From Gonocerus acuteangulatus (lineage: Eukaryota; Arthropoda; Insecta; Hemiptera; Coreidae), in contig OX328124.1 in assembly GCA_946811695.1 (NCBI GenBank), positions 30,455,148 to 30,519,147 of the forward strand: a stretch of DNA of 64,000 nucleotides. Reading direction: 5' to 3'. Position 1 is the stretch's first letter; each line of letters begins with the position of its first letter. Under the pieces are notes generated by a model, which saw only the letters and a list, made by a program, of their open reading frames with translations, was not told where the DNA came from and did not search any database. The position numbers were made by a program, and so were the translations under genes. Positions 8,728 through 57,304 of this stretch are shown here, piece by piece.

Positions 8728-10110
8728 ATGCCTAAGAGAAGAGGAACACACTCAAACATCGGTGAAGGTTGTCATTCAGTCTTGCGATCTTCTAATAGTT
8801 CTCAGGGACCAATACAGGAGGCTACGGTAAGATCGATCAATCGTAATTACCCTAAACTCGATTCATTTAATGGATCTGAAGGCGAAGAACAATGTGTATT
8901 CAGGGTAAGTGAACAATGTCTGGATAGCATCATTGATATCCTAAAGCAGCGCTTTTATAAATTAGATAACCCTCTTACTGCGCGTATAAACTTTGCTCAC
9001 AGATACAGGGATGAGGGGGAGTCAGTACAACATTTCATTGACGATTTACGAAGCTTATCTTCTTCTTGTGAATTTCAGAGTACTCTGGACGAGCACATGA
9101 GGGACCAGCTCATTATTGGCATTAATAACGAGTTTTGGCAGCGGGAGTTGATAAGATTACATTCTACCGGAACGGCGGCATTTGCAGACGTCCAGAAAAC
9201 CGCAATGCTTTTAGAAAATATTGACACACAACAAAAACAATTGCAAGCTCTTAGCTTAGGGCGGAAAAATCAAGTTAACAAAGTAAATTATAACAAATAC
9301 AGAACAAGAGTGCTTAAATTAAAAAAGGGAGTCCACTGTTTCAGGTGTGGAAACAAATTGCATAAGAATTCAAACTGTCCTGCCAGGAAAACAACATGTA
9401 GGGCATGCAAAAGGCCTAATAATTTCGCAAAAGCTTGCTTATTTTCAGGAAATGCTATTATTGAACGCGGAGCGGTCTCGAAGTTATCTCCACGGTTGAC
9501 TGCTCGTTCAAAATCTAACTCCAGTTCTTTAGATGAAAAAAGCATCAGTACACATTCTTTCGAATCGAACATTCACTCTTTGAAAGAAAGGATTACTAAG
9601 GCGTCTCAGGTAATGCTTAAGGTTAAGTTAAATAAAAAAATTATTAACATGCTTTACGACCCTGGAGCGTGTCACTCTATCATTAGTGAATCTCTTTGGA
9701 AAGTTTTAGGCTCACCTAAGATAAAGCCAGCGAACGACCTGACAGCATACACTGGGCATACAGTTCCGGTATTAGGAGCAACAAAAGTACAGGTTACAGC
9801 TTTTGACCGAATTAAAATGCTACCCATTTATATTATAAAAGGCGAAGGTGTTCCATTATTTGGGCTGGATTGGGTTTTCGCTTTTCGTCTCCCATTACCA
9901 GCAGGAGCCACTTTATGTAATGTAAAAGACTTCTGGGCATCACGGAACTCCAGCATGGACCAGGAAATTCGACTGCAGCAGTTACTTTTTACTTATCAGT
10001 GTTCGCCTCAACAAACTTCCGCTAGAACGCCAGGAGAAGTTCTTTATGGTAGAAGACTAAGGAATTCTTTTGATTTACTGAAGCCCGATTTATCCCGGAA
10101 CATTGACTAG
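8728..10110 (+). pseudogene. Gag-protease fused to integrase C terminus (Gypsy)
   Basis: 460-aa ORF. Residues about 70-180 resemble retrotransposon Gag (helical, F-x-D-L-R-x-L). A CCHC zinc knuckle C-x2-C-x4-H-x4-C lies at 204-217; the second knuckle at 224-237 has its His replaced by Asn. The protease follows, but its catalytic triad reads D-P-G at 311-313 instead of D-T-G; its end is marked by G-L-D-W at 379-382. From about residue 416 the sequence is the integrase C-terminal region (P-x-E-V-L-Y-G-R-R-L-R then D-L-L-K-P-D). After the TAG the same frame continues to about 10206, and a shifted frame retains the H-x-D-Q-I-R end at about 10290-10320. The deletion joined protease to integrase in frame. 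Confidence 0.88.
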
Positions 10111-15295: not shown

Positions 15296-16361
15296 ATCGA
15301 ATTGAGGTAATTTTAATTTAAAGTACTTATACATATTCCTTATAATACATATATATACCTTTGTATATTTATTTATTTATGGTCGAACCTTCTTTAATAG
15401 CCAATTTTGCATGAACATCTGCTATTTCGTTCCCTGTTATACCGCAATGACTTGGTATCCATGTGAATATAACTTGTGTATTATTTTTCTGCAAATTATC
15501 TAGGGTAGTTCGAAGTTCAACTATGAATGGATGTGTGGAAGCCAGCTTAGGTATTGACAATAATGTTGAAAGAGAGTCAGAAAATACATAAAGTTTTGTA
15601 CCGTTTGGAATAATGATATTTAGTGATTTGAGAATGGCGAGCAACTCAGCAGTATAGATGGAGCATTCATGGTTTAATGAAAATTTATTAATTCTTGAAT
15701 CACAAACTACAGCTGCTCCTACACCATCTTCGGTTTTTGAGCCATCAGTATAAACCTGACTAGCTAGTGGAATTCCTTCCGTAATTTTGTTAAATTCTGA
15801 GATAAATATGAGCGGGCTGGTGTCTTTTTTTAAATATTTAGTCAGTTTTATGTTTATGAAAGGAACGGGCAGTGTCCAGGGAGGTTTGGTGTAATTAGTC
15901 TCTTTAAGAATTAGATTCTTGTCTATGCTGTGATCGTTAGAAAGTTCTGTAGCTCTATGATAGAATGATTTCCTACAGTTGTTATGATTTTGTGTAAGAA
16001 TGTTGTCCAAAACAATTTGAAGTGGATGGGAATAAGAAGCAAAAAGAGAAATGTAATAACTAAGTGTTAGTTGTTTTCTTCTAAATTGAAGTGGAGGCTC
16101 CCCGGACTGGGCGCAATACTCACCACAGGACTTGATCGAAAGGCTCCAGTAGCGATTCTTAGTCCAAGATGATGTACTGAGTCTAACATTGCAAGAGTTT
16201 TCTGAGATGCAGATCCATAGGCCGTACATCCATAATCCAGCTTTGATCTAATGAGGCTACGATAGAGCATGAGCATGCTTGTTCTATCTGCTCCTCATGA
16301 GGTATTTGCTCATGGAGACCATCGGCAAACGTTACGGGTCTCTGAAAATAAATAAATAAAT
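15296..16361 (-). mobile_element. Non-LTR retrotransposon fragment with RNase H, 14-bp target duplication
   Basis: Bounded by AAAATCTCTATTAA at 15282-15295 and 16362-16375. Most is minus-strand coding DNA (end of reverse transcriptase, then RNase H), but the right edge (about 16300-16361) ends in a plus-strand (AAAT)n tail. This suggests an insertion with an inverted 5' part. Confidence 0.7.
15369..16310 (-). pseudogene. Non-LTR (Jockey/I-like) RT C-terminus and RNase H
   Basis: From 16310 downwards: A-D-R-T-S-M-L-M-L-Y-R-S-L-I-R-S-K-L-D-Y-G, the thumb region after the polymerase domain of Jockey/I-type elements; then, after a frameshift near 16.07-16.12 kb, the ORF ending at 15369. Its RNase H keeps Y-T-D-G-S (D162), E195, D218 in F-S-D-S, and W-I-P-S-H-C-G-I-x-G-N-E-I-A-D (H261, D271), so the four-acid catalytic set is intact. 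The product stops soon after; the usual C-terminal zinc-finger part is absent. Confidence 0.88.
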
Positions 16362-16821: not shown

Positions 16822-16988
16822 TAGTTATTCATTGGGCTATTTACGCCGGGCTATCTACAGGTTGCCACCCTTTTATAATACCAACAGCACGTGGACGGTA
16901 ACCCATTCAGGTTCTGGTTACGCACATTGTTGCTTAACTTCGGTGATCAACAGGAAACGGTGCATTCAAAATGGCTATGGCCGTTGGC
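16822..16988 (-). mobile_element. 5S rRNA-derived SINE
   Basis: The minus strand starts GCCAACGGCCATAGCCA, the start of 5S rRNA, then CGAAGTTAAGCAAC and the same tail as the other copies (GTGGCAACCTGTAGATAGCC). It directly abuts the tRNA-SINE at 16998. Confidence 0.88.
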
Positions 16989-17065
16989 CTCTAGACATTT
17001 TTTTTTTTTTGGTGCAACGAGGAATTTTCCCAACGAGCCGTGGGATGAGAAAATTCCTGCCGCCG

Positions 17066-18452
17066 CACAGTGTAACGTCCAATTGACAAAAACCTAAATT
17101 TTTGTTTTCTTATATTTAATTTTTAATCCTCTACCTAAGTTTAGAAACTATTCAAGGAATTAAAATCTTATAAAACTAGTAAATATTAGTTTTATTTTGA
17201 TCAACAAACACATTAGCAGTATTATAAACAAGGCAATGTCTTTAAAACCTGCTTTATAGCAACAATCAGTTTGAGCCTCTCTCGTTGAAGATAGGACAGT
17301 GTTTTTATTAATTCATCCGAAGGAAATTACGTCAAAACTATTCCTTTTTTATCCGACATAATTGATTATGGGTAATTACTTCCTTATTATTTATTCTGAA
17401 TTATTCTTCATTGATCTTTGAAATTTTTTTTAAGTACATAATTTTGATAGACCATAGCAAAAAAACTTCATCTGAACACATCCCAAATTTTTTAGATCTT
17501 AAAGTTTACCTCAAGCATAATGTACTGAGGGCAATTTAGTTTGCCGAAATTTGCCAATTCCAAAGATTTTTATTTTTAGATCCATGATCATTTTTTCTTC
17601 CAAATTTGAAAAAAAATTTGGATAAATCCAAGAAAACGGTATCAATCCTCGGGCAAATGATTCAATTTGATCGGCAGGATGCTCCTACACAAAGTTTAAG
17701 CAATATTAATAAAACTGCCAGTTTAGTCCTATATTATATGTAAAAAATGTGGGAACGTGTTCACCGCAGAGAAAAAAACGCTTATATAAATACTGGTTGA
17801 AACGATATATCAACTTAGAAGAAATTGCTATTAATTTTTATCAAGAAAAAAGATATTCGCGCCCTGATGGCCCTTCCGGCTTCCTTAGAGGCAGACATAA
17901 AAAAGAGTTTACAGCGTTGTGTGAGAGATCGAAAAAGCGCCGGATTCTACTGATATCTGGCCCAGAGCTTTTTTTAGGGAGAAAAAATATAAAAAGGCAA
18001 AGCAAAATCAGTCCGGACATTAATGAATGTATAATAGAGGATGACATTAATAATCTAATAAATATTGGTTTCGATATAAGTTTACATTCTCAAGAATCCA
18101 AAACGATTCAGACTCGGAATTAAAAAATTATTTAATAATTTCATAGAAAATGGTAAAATATTATTATTCTATGGCAATATTACTATAAGTATGGTATAAT
18201 TTACTGCTATACTATTACTACATTATATGTTACCGTTAAAATATATTTTATAATATTGTTATTAATAATATTATTACCTGCAATATTATGTCTATTAATA
18301 TTACAAATAATATTATTATAGCCGTATAGTATGCATTATTGTACTATTGTTACCTTGTTTTGAGTTGATTTCAATTGATAAAAATGTTTATTTGAAAATA
18401 ACTAGTGGTTAATGAATTTTGTCCACAATCCTCACTACTTCGTTACACTGTG
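17066..18452 (+). mobile_element. Transib-like DNA transposon with RSS-like 13/23 ends
   Basis: A 1,387-bp element with 12-bp perfect terminal inverted repeats, CACAGTGTAACG at 17066-17077 and its complement at 18441-18452, flanked by a perfect 5-bp duplication CGCCG (17061-17065 and 18453-18457). It interrupts a tRNA-derived SINE whose halves rejoin exactly when the element and one CGCCG are removed. The left end reads heptamer CACAGTG, 13-bp spacer, nonamer ACAAAAACC (17086-17094). The right end, on the minus strand, reads CACAGTG, 23-bp spacer, ACAAAATTC (18422-18414), 7 of 9 to the RSS nonamer. Known: Transib transposons, relatives of RAG1, have RSS-like ends and GC-rich 5-bp target duplications. 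The interior lacks a full transposase, so this copy is non-autonomous. Confidence 0.8.
17749..18123 (+). CDS. Possible remnant of Transib N-terminal transposase region
   Basis: A 124-aa ORF lying wholly inside the RSS-ended transposon. It is basic at the start (R-K-K-R-L), has a short helical stretch (N-L-E-E-I-A-I-N-F-Y), then G-R-x4-F-x4-E-R-S-K-K-R-R at about residues 67-84, reminiscent of the F-x-x-x-S-E-R-S/T-K-R-R-K segment I recall from the N-terminal part of Transib transposases. No RAG1-like catalytic core (D, D, E with zinc-binding Cys/His) is present. Whether it is translated is unknown. It could be a chance ORF, but location and motif favour a remnant. Confidence 0.45.
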   Translation: MGTCSPQRKKRLYKYWLKRYINLEEIAINFYQEKRYSRPDGPSGFLRGRHKKEFTALCERSKKRRILLISGPELFLGRKNIKRQSKISPDINECIIEDDINNLINIGFDISLHSQESKTIQTRN

Positions 18453-18639
18453 CGCCGGTGGGAATCGAACCCACCATCTCCCGCTTATGAATCTAAGGCG
18501 CTAGCCACTAGACCACGGGAGACCCCTCCAGACATTGTTATTGTCATATAAGTTTCTCGAGTAGATGGCTATATTAAGATATAAGTTTAATGGAGCTCTG
18601 TATAAATGAAGTCCATTGGATGGGCTTACTATACTGTCT

Positions 18640-23144: not shown

Positions 23145-23267
23145 TGATAACACGATAGCGGCCAGAGTTTTTGTCTTTTCGTCACGAAACTTGGTATATA
23201 GCATTCAATTAGCAAACGATTGAACGAGTTCGTTAACCACCAAAGTCGGTCCACCGGAAGGGGAGGG

Positions 23268-23840
23268 GGTTTACCCCGAACCCAAAACACTAATTTGACT
23301 ATGTCAGCCGTAATATTTGTTATATTTCAACGAAACTTGGTATTCGTAGTGGTAATATAGAGAGAAAAGTGAGATATAAAAATGAACTAAATAGGTTCAT
23401 TAGAAGGGGGGGTTTACTCCGGACCCACAATACCAATTCGCCACTACCAGCCGTGATTTTTGGTATATTTCGACGAAACTCGGTATTCGTAGTGCTAATC
23501 AACAGGTAAATACGTGTTGTAAAAATAAACTAAATCGGTTCATTAGGAGGGGGGGTTTACTCCGGACCTACAATACCAATTCGCCACTACCAGCCGTGAT
23601 TTTTGGTATATTTCGACGAAACTCGGTATTCGTAGTGGTAATCTACAGTTAAATATGTGTTGTAAAAATAAACTAAATCGGTTCATTAGAAGGGGGGGTT
23701 TACTTCGGACCCAAATTCCTAATATACTCATACCGGTCGTAATTTCTGCTGTATTGTAACGAAACGCGGTATACGTCTTGGGTAACTCATGAGAAAGAAG
23801 TGTTGTAAAAATGAGCTGAATCGGTCAATCGTAAAGCGGG
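23268..23840 (+). repeat. Minisatellite, four ~143-bp units inside family B element
   Basis: Units begin GGTTTACYCCGGACCC at 23268, 23411, 23554 and 23699. The two central units are almost identical. The inverted copy near 28.5-28.96 kb has only three units, so copy number varies between elements. Confidence 0.85.
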
Positions 23841-28167: not shown

Positions 28168-29246
28168 AAAGTCCGTCACGCAGGAGCTGCATAACTAAGC
28201 ACTTTCCTCAGAATTTGGGTAGTGTAGACTGCTTTCCAGAACAATTTGCTTAAAATATCCTACATAAATAAAATAAAAACATGAATAGTTCTCTTTTAAA
28301 TTTGTAATGAGTAACTGATCAATTATTAATTTGCTTCCAGAGTTATGTTTACACATGGTACCTACTACACTACGTAATAAATACAAAAATCCTCATATTA
28401 TCGTATTTTGATCTAACGCAGGAACAGGATACAGTCACTCTAGTGGTAGAAAGCGCTCCTTGCGGCGGCTTTGTGAACCTACGTCTGCCGGCTTTTCTAT
28501 TCAAATATATTACAAATTAAACCCCCGCTTTCCGATTGACCGATTCAGCTCATTTTTACAACACTTCTTTCTCATGAGTTACCCACGACGTATACCGCGT
28601 TTCGTTACAATACAGCAGAAATTACGACCGGTATGAGTATATTAGGAATTTGGGTCCGGAGTAAACCCCCCCTTCTAATGAACCGATTAGTTTATTTTTA
28701 CAACACATATTTACCTGTGGATTAGCACTACGAATACAGAGTTTCGTCGAAATATACCAAAAATCACGGCTGGTAGTGGCGAATTGGTATTGTGGGTCCG
28801 GAGTAAACCCCCCCTTCTAATGAACCAATTTAGTTCATTTTTATATCTCACTTTTCTCTCTATATTACCACTACGAATACCAAGTTTCGTTGAAATATAA
28901 CAAATATTACGGCTGACATAGTCAAATAAGTGTTTTGGGTTCGGGGTAAACCCCCCCTTCCGGTGGACCGACTTTAGTGGTTAACGAACTCGTTCAATCG
29001 TTTGCTAATTGAATGCTATATACCAAGTTTCGTGACGAAAAAACAAAAACTCTGGCCGCTATCGTGTTAACAGACACATATATATATATGCATATATATA
29101 TATATATATATAGATATATATAAATTTTAACGGGGGTCATTTTCGGTGTCTACTAGGTAGGATCGATAAAGATTTGAAGAAATTTTTCAAAAATTCCGTC
29201 ATGAGTCCAACCTCAATAGCTACTTTCCTTCGGAGGAAAGTGCTAA
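28168..29246 (+). mobile_element. Helentron-like element, family B copy 2
   Basis: Complete by its ends: the 5' module GTCCGTCACGCAGGAGCTGC, subterminal AGCACTTTCCTC (28198), three ~143-bp tandem units (about 28520-28960), (TA)n (29078-29122), and 3' hairpin ending GAGGAAAGTGCTAA before T. It sits inside a larger foldback element (27944-29555). Confidence 0.62.
28520..28960 (-). repeat. Minisatellite, three ~143-bp units (inverted partner)
   Basis: Same unit as 23268-23840 in opposite orientation, with boundaries at the C runs near 28523, 28668, 28810 and 28957. Confidence 0.8.
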
Positions 29247-34673: not shown

Positions 34674-52170
<17,497 letters not shown>

Positions 52171-56233: not shown

Positions 56234-57304
56234 ATGACCTATAATATGAAAAAATATTCTTTTGAGAAAACTCTTGATGATTATGAGTTCATGAAACAAG
56301 AAATCGAAAGTACGGAGGGAACTATTATAAGTGATTCTATCATATCAGTTAATTGTGAGAGTGTTAACTTGGAACAATGTGAACAGATATTTTTCTTTTT
56401 GAAATCATCTCTTTCAATTCACTTTATAATCCTGAGGGGTAAACCAGGATATTCAATAAGAAACGACATTACTAATAGCGAACTTGTGAAAAGCTATGAT
56501 GGTCCAGCTTTCTATACGAAATATGTCTTGAAAAATTTATGCCACTCTCTCAGTGATTACCTTTCTAATTCTGAACGAATAAGGCTTATGGCATTTAAAA
56601 ATGTGCCATTTGGAATTGATTTGAATTATATATGTTCAGGCTTACGTGTTAATAAATCACTGAAACTTTTATGTTTTAAAAATTGTGATTTTGGTGATGA
56701 GGGATGTATTAAAATATGTTCCGCAATGCGAAAGTATTTTATCGAAGTACTAGTGTTTGAGAATTGTGGTTTATCAAACTCTTCTATATCATGGATTGCC
56801 TGGTTAATAAAGGAGCAATCTATGTCAAGGACTTTGTTATTTTGGTGGCCAAAGAAGAACCACAATGATTTGAAATCCTGTGAAAGGGGTTTGAGAATTC
56901 TGAATCTGAATGATAACCCATTGATTGGAGATAAAGGGGCTAAATTATTAATAGAAGCACTGTCCGAAGACAAAATGCTTAAACAAGTACACATGGAAAA
57001 CACAGGTATTTCTGATTATACTTGCAAGTTGTTGGTCGATTTATGTGATAAAAACAAGGGGTTAGAAATATTTAATACAATGAGAAATGATATCACTGCC
57101 ATCTGTTCTTTAGCCCTAGTTATTGAAAAAGTCTCTACTCCAAAGAAGAAAAGAAATATTAAAAAATCCCAAGATAAAAAAACTACTTCTTTAAAAGTTA
57201 AACCAAAGCAAGTTTACAATAAGGGAATAACTAAACATATAGAATCTATTGATACAACTGGAAGAGATTGTCTTACAGATTTATCTGATTCTAGATCGTC
57301 ATAG
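56234..57304 (+). CDS. CEP78: CEP78-like leucine-rich repeat protein, intronless
   Basis: One uninterrupted 356-aa ORF. By recall it resembles the N-terminal half of CEP78, a centriole/basal-body protein that regulates ciliogenesis. In the sequence: an acidic N-terminal region with F-F-F at 53-55, ribonuclease-inhibitor-type LRRs at about 114-138, 139-167, 168-196, 219-247 and 248-276, and the marker stretch L-N-L-N-D-N-P-L-I-G-D-K-G-A. This aligns with the LRR of CEP78 that follows its K-Y-Q-T-M segment; here K-E-Q-S-M lies at 193-197. A basic Lys-rich tail spans 303-326. Vertebrate CEP78 is about 700 aa; the coiled-coil half is missing. Beyond the TAG the frame stays open for about 18 Ser/Lys-rich codons, so the stop may be a recent truncation. 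It lies 4.06 kb from the MTMR9 start, divergently. Absence of introns could mean a retrocopy, but no poly(A) tail or flanking duplication is visible. Confidence 0.7.
   Translation: MTYNMKKYSFEKTLDDYEFMKQEIESTEGTIISDSIISVNCESVNLEQCEQIFFFLKSSLSIHFIILRGKPGYSIRNDITNSELVKSYDGPAFYTKYVLKNLCHSLSDYLSNSERIRLMAFKNVPFGIDLNYICSGLRVNKSLKLLCFKNCDFGDEGCIKICSAMRKYFIEVLVFENCGLSNSSISWIAWLIKEQSMSRTLLFWWPKKNHNDLKSCERGLRILNLNDNPLIGDKGAKLLIEALSEDKMLKQVHMENTGISDYTCKLLVDLCDKNKGLEIFNTMRNDITAICSLALVIEKVSTPKKKRNIKKSQDKKTTSLKVKPKQVYNKGITKHIESIDTTGRDCLTDLSDSRSS

Follow-up and report, generated by a model that had tools for sequence, protein, structure and literature searches.

A high-copy, probably Transib-type transposon family with unequal 13/23 RSS-like ends in the genome of a probable heteropteran bug

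The element described here, which lies in a 64,000-nucleotide stretch of DNA (the window), is very probably a non-autonomous member of a high-copy Transib family that a Transib (RAG1-core-like) transposase mobilises, or once mobilised, in trans, and is bounded by bipartite ends with spacers of 13 and 23 bp (Table 1). The original prediction had described the left end as CACAGTG, a 13-bp spacer and an exact RSS nonamer, and the right end as CACAGTG, a 23-bp spacer and a nonamer matching at 7/9 positions; both ends are present as described. The RSS consensus to which they are compared has the heptamer CACAGTG and the nonamer ACAAAAACC (accessible part of PMC8289069). The outer 12 bp are identical between the two ends of the element, and CACAGTGTAACG is terminal at both, in inverted order.

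Table 1. Positions of the element, its parts and the SINE copies related to its insertion site, in window coordinates.
Feature	Position	Strand	Remark
Non-autonomous Transib-type DNA transposon (probable)	17066..18452	+	1387 bp
Target site duplication CGCCG, left copy	17061..17065	+	identical 5 bases at 18453-18457
Left heptamer CACAGTG	17066..17072	+	
Left spacer, 13 bp	17073..17085	+	
Left nonamer ACAAAAACC, 9/9 vs RSS nonamer	17086..17094	+	
Open-frame remnant, 124 aa	17749..18123	+	frame runs towards 23-spacer end
Right nonamer ACAAAATTC, 7/9 vs RSS nonamer	18414..18422	-	
Right spacer, 23 bp	18423..18445	-	
Right heptamer CACAGTG	18446..18452	-	
Target site duplication CGCCG, right copy	18453..18457	+	
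tRNA-type SINE holding element, 3' part	16997..17065 (approximate bounds)	-	
tRNA-type SINE holding element, 5' tRNA-like part	18453..18536 (approximate bounds)	-	
Related SINE copy without insertion (empty site)	40136..40259	+	strand from alignment to minus strand of joined flanks

The element interrupts a tRNA-type SINE that is bordered by near-identical 12-mers at 16988 and 18525. A related SINE copy elsewhere in the window provides the empty site, and is identical to the joined flanks of the element at 114 of 124 positions across the junction. The CGCCG duplication, which had been called Transib-type, is found at both sides of the element; a GC-rich duplication of 5 bp is that of Transib and not of CACTA. 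Another superfamily whose elements begin with CAC, for example CACTA itself, has those first bases in its favor but is scarcely conceivable as the source: CACTA elements start with CACTA and produce a 3-bp duplication, whereas the termini here are CACAGTG and the duplications 5 bp. Two 5S-rRNA-like stretches were also observed on the minus strand of the window, at 16879-16988 (39.8 bits) and 2102-2211 (41.9 bits; Rfam cut-off 38), the former abutting the SINE that holds the element; both are perhaps 5S-derived SINEs.

The RSS-like character of the ends is more than chance. Of the 127,991 places that the two strands of the window offer, a single one carries the exact RSS nonamer, and it is the left end of the element; at 7/9 or better, the nonamer is found at 427 of those places. 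In a further scan of the window, CAC...GTG pairs were sought that are separated by 60-6000 bp and have a perfect 5-bp repeat on either side; they were listed only if their outer 12 bp agreed in at least nine places or the repeat was CGNCG, and the element was alone in qualifying. A coincidence picked from much sequence would be an extremely improbable explanation. Much sequence was indeed scanned in making the original prediction, and a 7/9 nonamer match at some spacer is common when a single end is considered (6.7% of random segments); against this, when window segments were paired at random, only one pair in 200,000 attained 16/18 for its two nonamers combined at spacers of 11-13 and 22-24 bp, and the consensus of the copies at the right end is nearer to the RSS (8/9) than the window copy is (7/9). 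With any spacers from 8 to 30 bp, nonamer matches of 9 and 7 were reached by three in 100,000 random pairs. The left-end 29-mer, allowing up to three mismatches, has 845 matches in the genome compared with none for its reversed control, and the exact left end has no copy in the viral sequence collection.

The genome assembly searched comprises 1.106 Gb in 135 contigs; the ten contigs encountered sum to approximately 1.102 Gb. Forty of the 1563 candidate places returned by a DNA search for the family of the window element (family 1) were scored, and the 39 of these other than the window's own were fetched, giving 40 examined copies with that of the window. Full-length copies among the places scored, other than the window's own, have 88-94% identity. 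The 40 copies were selected for similarity to the window element and for ends that could be recognised, a choice that favors good ones; 35 left and 38 right ends were scorable, both of them in 34 copies. Spacers of random length in other copies had been named as an outcome that would speak against the prediction. They are not random: all 35 scorable left ends have a spacer of 13 bp, and 37 of the 38 scorable right ends one of 23 bp, the exception having 22 bp, where the script accepted 11-18 bp on the left and 19-28 bp on the right. Loss of the nonamer had been named likewise, and the nonamer is kept, matching ACAAAAACC at 9/9 in 21 left ends, 8/9 in eight and 7/9 in six, and at 9/9 in one right end, 8/9 in 26, 7/9 in nine and 6/9 in two. 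The heptamer CACAGTG is exact in 29 of the 35 left and 34 of the 38 right ends. The consensus that had been proposed as a check was built from 30 copies, and is 1383 bp long with the right nonamer ACAAAAATC (8/9) and the left spacer TAACGTCCAATGG.

Similar spacers were obtained when the right end played no part in the choice of copies. Among 20 loci picked by their left end only, 13 have a recognisable right end, with a spacer of 23 bp in 12 and 22 bp in one, and the two-ended elements span 1051 to 3249 bp. When the spacer was left free between 6 and 34 bp, CACAGTG...ACAAAAAYC gave 1291 genomic matches, as against 56 in the reversed control. Ninety-three of 100 strings among the matches listed have a spacer of 13 (47) or 23 bp (46), and 11, 12, 16, 20, 21, 22 and 30 bp occur once each. 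As 91 of these 100 listed strings (91 of the 93 with 13 or 23 bp) belong to family 1, they are not independent; they represent one event inherited many times.

The same consideration gives rise to the principal alternative, which we regard as possible but rather unlikely: the element would be a Transib whose nonamer and 13/23 difference are without function, a 10-bp difference in the founder having been inherited while the transposase reads only the heptamer and adjacent bases. The copies do share descent (they diverge from their consensus by a mean of 3.4%, range 2.0-4.6%), and spacer constancy alone is therefore no proof of constraint. Most Transib families, moreover, have symmetric ends, and those of HzTransib show little or no nonamer similarity, according to the accessible part of PMC8289069. 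Three observations nevertheless argue that the asymmetry is more than a founder effect. The inner parts of the two ends (left ATGGACAAAAACC, right ATGGACAAAAATC) agree at all but one of 13 positions, a score reached by six of 1,926 shuffled pairs; the ends thus look like one inverted repeat that is longer by approximately 10 bp, one helical turn, on the right. Pairs of 12/23 (+/-1) spacers are known from fly and mosquito Transibs (PMC8355894, in the part available). The third is a second family in the same genome with other spacer letters and the same 13/23 layout.

This second family was reached via two odd strings among the free-spacer matches, at loci L089 and L090. The L089 element is 930 bp long with exact CAACG duplications, and has the ends CACAGTG-23-ACAAAAATC and CACAGTG-13-ACCAAAGTC, the nonamer of the latter matching at only 6/9 positions; it was picked up through its 23 end in the free-spacer search, and its 13 end was located via the duplication. 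L090 starts with the 13-spacer end of L089, here with the nonamer ACAAAAATC (8/9). The family-1 consensus has no blastn match to the L089 element at 1e-3, and the spacer letters of the two families differ. The layout of the second family is represented by one two-ended copy and one further 13-bp end. A third Transib-like candidate, L091 (G000:C1:7892000-7894700), is 1944 bp long with CGGCG on both sides and CACAGTG-22-ACAAAAATC (8/9) at one end. Its other end reads CACATTG with a best nonamer of 5/9, and it was rejected as a third family with a 12/23 pair; it counts against a universal rule, and lends some weight to the reading in which the asymmetry is functionless.

The target sites were examined in the two-ended copies. 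The 5-bp duplications are exact in 15 of the 34 two-ended family-1 copies, agree at 4/5 positions in 14 and at fewer in five, while the 13 further two-ended copies from the left-end loci have seven exact duplications and six at 4/5. Together with the retained nonamers, the 5-bp GC-rich duplications of the copies support the Transib-like identity that had been proposed for the element. The target motif is CCGNCGG, a GC-rich palindrome, as derived from 28 copies with at least 4/5 bases duplicated (the window copy was not included) and dominated by one SINE position, at which 21 of the 28 lie. This position accounts for 25 of the 34 insertions, split 14 to 11 between the two orientations, and that SINE forms the left flank at 12 of the 20 loci picked by left end. 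The two flanks of one family-1 copy (L030; G000:C6:103468008-103469939) correspond to a single side of the SINE and are inverted relative to each other, a pattern that recombination between two insertions, or inversion of a flank, could produce. Drosophila hopper and transib2 are alike in having 5-bp duplications and a 7-bp palindromic target, which is CCANTGG in their case (PMC3276498, in the part available); family 1 differs in the CpG of both half-sites and in its strong concentration at one SINE position. CpG decay would turn CCGNCGG into CCANTGG, a correspondence that is possibly accidental.

The source of the transposase was sought in several ways. The 124-aa remnant of the window element has no match in the PDB and, in its consensus form, none in Pfam; a FokI_D3 Pfam hit of the remnant (E 0.024) fell under the cut-off and is not believed. 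Compared with the C-terminal transposase piece of the second family, the remnant attains a score reached by two of 1000 shuffles, and its score against the HzTransib piece is at chance level, being attained by 404 of 1000 shuffles. We would guess that it is an internally deleted transposase. The L089 element encodes 44 residues, SNADLLNRLLISSDPLISLKR, for which a PDB search at E<=10 returned HzTransib alone (22 residues, E 0.016). In both families the transposase remnant has its C terminus towards the 23-spacer end, provided for family 1 that the remnant is one.

A 149-residue C-terminal piece of a Transib transposase was also used as a probe. Against HzTransib it scores E 5.5e-58, and it aligns with RAG1L and RAG1 (E approximately 0.01) at the expected position; it is thus a valid probe. 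In a tblastn search of the fetched loci at E<=1, it matched L063 (2e-9), L089 (0.002), L006 (0.044) and L001 (0.36), and a search confined to four loci returned L089 at E 1e-4. The L063 match covers 50 residues in a locus in which no right end was found, and is left unassigned to any element. The RAG1 Pfam model had no hit in this genome, nor in any of 14 control genomes, so that its negative result here is uninformative. No Transib transposase was recognised by eye between two family-1 ends in the open frames listed for the 20 left-end loci, among which the longest resembled other transposable elements. One family-1 left end (L058; G000:C1:28602324-28606652) is followed by reverse transcriptase open frames of 408 and 382 aa, which by eye we take to be R2-like. 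An autonomous Transib is usually a single-copy or few-copy element (PMC4411706, in the part available).

These observations also bear on whether the element could be a derivative of a RAGL (RAG1L-RAG2L, ProtoRAG-like) transposon and not of a Transib, which appears very unlikely. RAGL elements have the CAC heptamer and 5-bp duplications in common with the element, but their ends follow a consensus of 13-15 bp in which positions 8-10 form an A-rich block, and are relatively insensitive to asymmetry (both from the available part of PMC7204232), and no RAGL ends follow 12/23 according to the part of PMC8355894 that was available. The related family at L089 bears a fragment that matches HzTransib. 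The window element itself has no room for RAG1L and RAG2L genes in convergent arrangement.

Under the Transib reading, the 13-spacer and 23-spacer ends would present a common heptamer and nearly the same A-rich nonamer, offset by approximately one helical turn. The transposase most likely binds both heptamer and nonamer, and most likely pairs a short-spacer with a long-spacer end. Cutting would most likely proceed by nick and hairpin, a chemistry known for HzTransib and RAG, and be followed, again most likely, by insertion at CCGNCGG sites, which are GC-rich palindromes, with cuts staggered by 5 bp. The ends, spacers, target duplications, target motif, copy number, SINE insertion and second family with its layout are observed; we infer the enzyme, its use of the nonamer, the way in which ends are paired and the hairpin step.

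The host is probably a heteropteran bug. The telomere-type unit TTAGGGATGG is present in the outermost 40 bases at nine of the 20 ends of the ten contigs, and this decamer is known within Heteroptera from Cimicidae, Pentatomidae, Coreidae and Aradidae (available parts of PMC11354137 and PMC13421425). Elsewhere in the window, two tandem arrays (23265-23825 and 28651-28960) have a 143-bp unit, the consensus of one resembling by eye the reverse complement of the other. Remnants of retroelements are found at 8728-10110 (+; gag/protease-like, Pfam, under cut-off), 15369-16229 (-; RNase H, Pfam E 3.5e-12) and 39153-39977 (-; reverse transcriptase, Pfam, under cut-off). A 356-aa open frame at 56234-57304 (+) contains leucine-rich repeats (Pfam LRR_6, E 1.4e-6) and may be CEP78-like.

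Asymmetric ends of this kind are already known, and what is new here is the lineage (probably a new insect order for such ends), the spacer constancy and the second family. No description of 12/23-type ends in Hemiptera was recognised among the titles and abstracts listed in searches of an open literature collection, most subscription papers lying outside it. Families with 13/23 ends add to the few insect cases, and help in asking how old the 12/23 arrangement is. Through its copy number, a 13/23 family of this kind also makes available natural ends by the hundred in which RSS heptamer and nonamer are exact, and it offers a system without RAG2 in which to test whether unlike spacers are required. 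The descent of 12/23 signals is hard to determine (PMC8289069, in the part available). It would be speculative, and on balance doubtful, to regard the short/long asymmetry as an old and functionally kept trait of a single Transib lineage extending across at least the Hemiptera and the Diptera; the 12/23 geometry would then have been a transposon pairing code before RAG was tamed, perhaps at first a 13/23 code with a one-turn difference.

Compared with the vertebrate 12RSS and 23RSS, the left heptamer and nonamer are both exact and the right spacer is 23 bp, but the short spacer is 13 and not 12 bp, and the signals are transposon ends with target duplications and not the flanks of gene segments. 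The ends therefore fall outside a V(D)J definition that takes exactly 12 bp on one side, and within that of 12/23-asymmetric Transibs, which takes one spacer of 12 (+/-1) and one of 23 (+/-1) bp. The 12/23-type pair of the original prediction consequently stands as regards its unequal spacers, kept across copies, and its 23-bp long spacer, and fails as regards a short spacer of 12 bp. HzTransib (Helicoverpa zea; PDB 6pqn and others) has the superfamily in common with the element, and is matched by both the family-2 fragment and the Transib probe; it differs in that its ends are symmetric (available part of PMC8289069). Some Transib ends have heptamers and nonamers identical to those of RSSs, but spacers of various lengths (PMC6941560, in the part available). 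The closest known systems are Transib5 of Drosophila melanogaster and Transib2, N1, N2 and N3 of Anopheles gambiae, which have 12/23 asymmetry with spacers of 12 or 23 (+/-1) bp, some with heptamers and nonamers identical to RSSs; besides RAG, only some Transib members are known to transpose with such asymmetry (PMC8355894, after Kapitonov and Jurka 2005, in the part available). These fly and mosquito ends weaken the claim that such a pair is striking in an invertebrate, although the exact heptamer and nonamer are real. Compared by description only, they are alike in their asymmetric ends of 12 or 23 (+/-1) bp; the present element differs in a short spacer of 13 bp in every scorable copy, in its high copy number and in the presence of a second family in the same genome.
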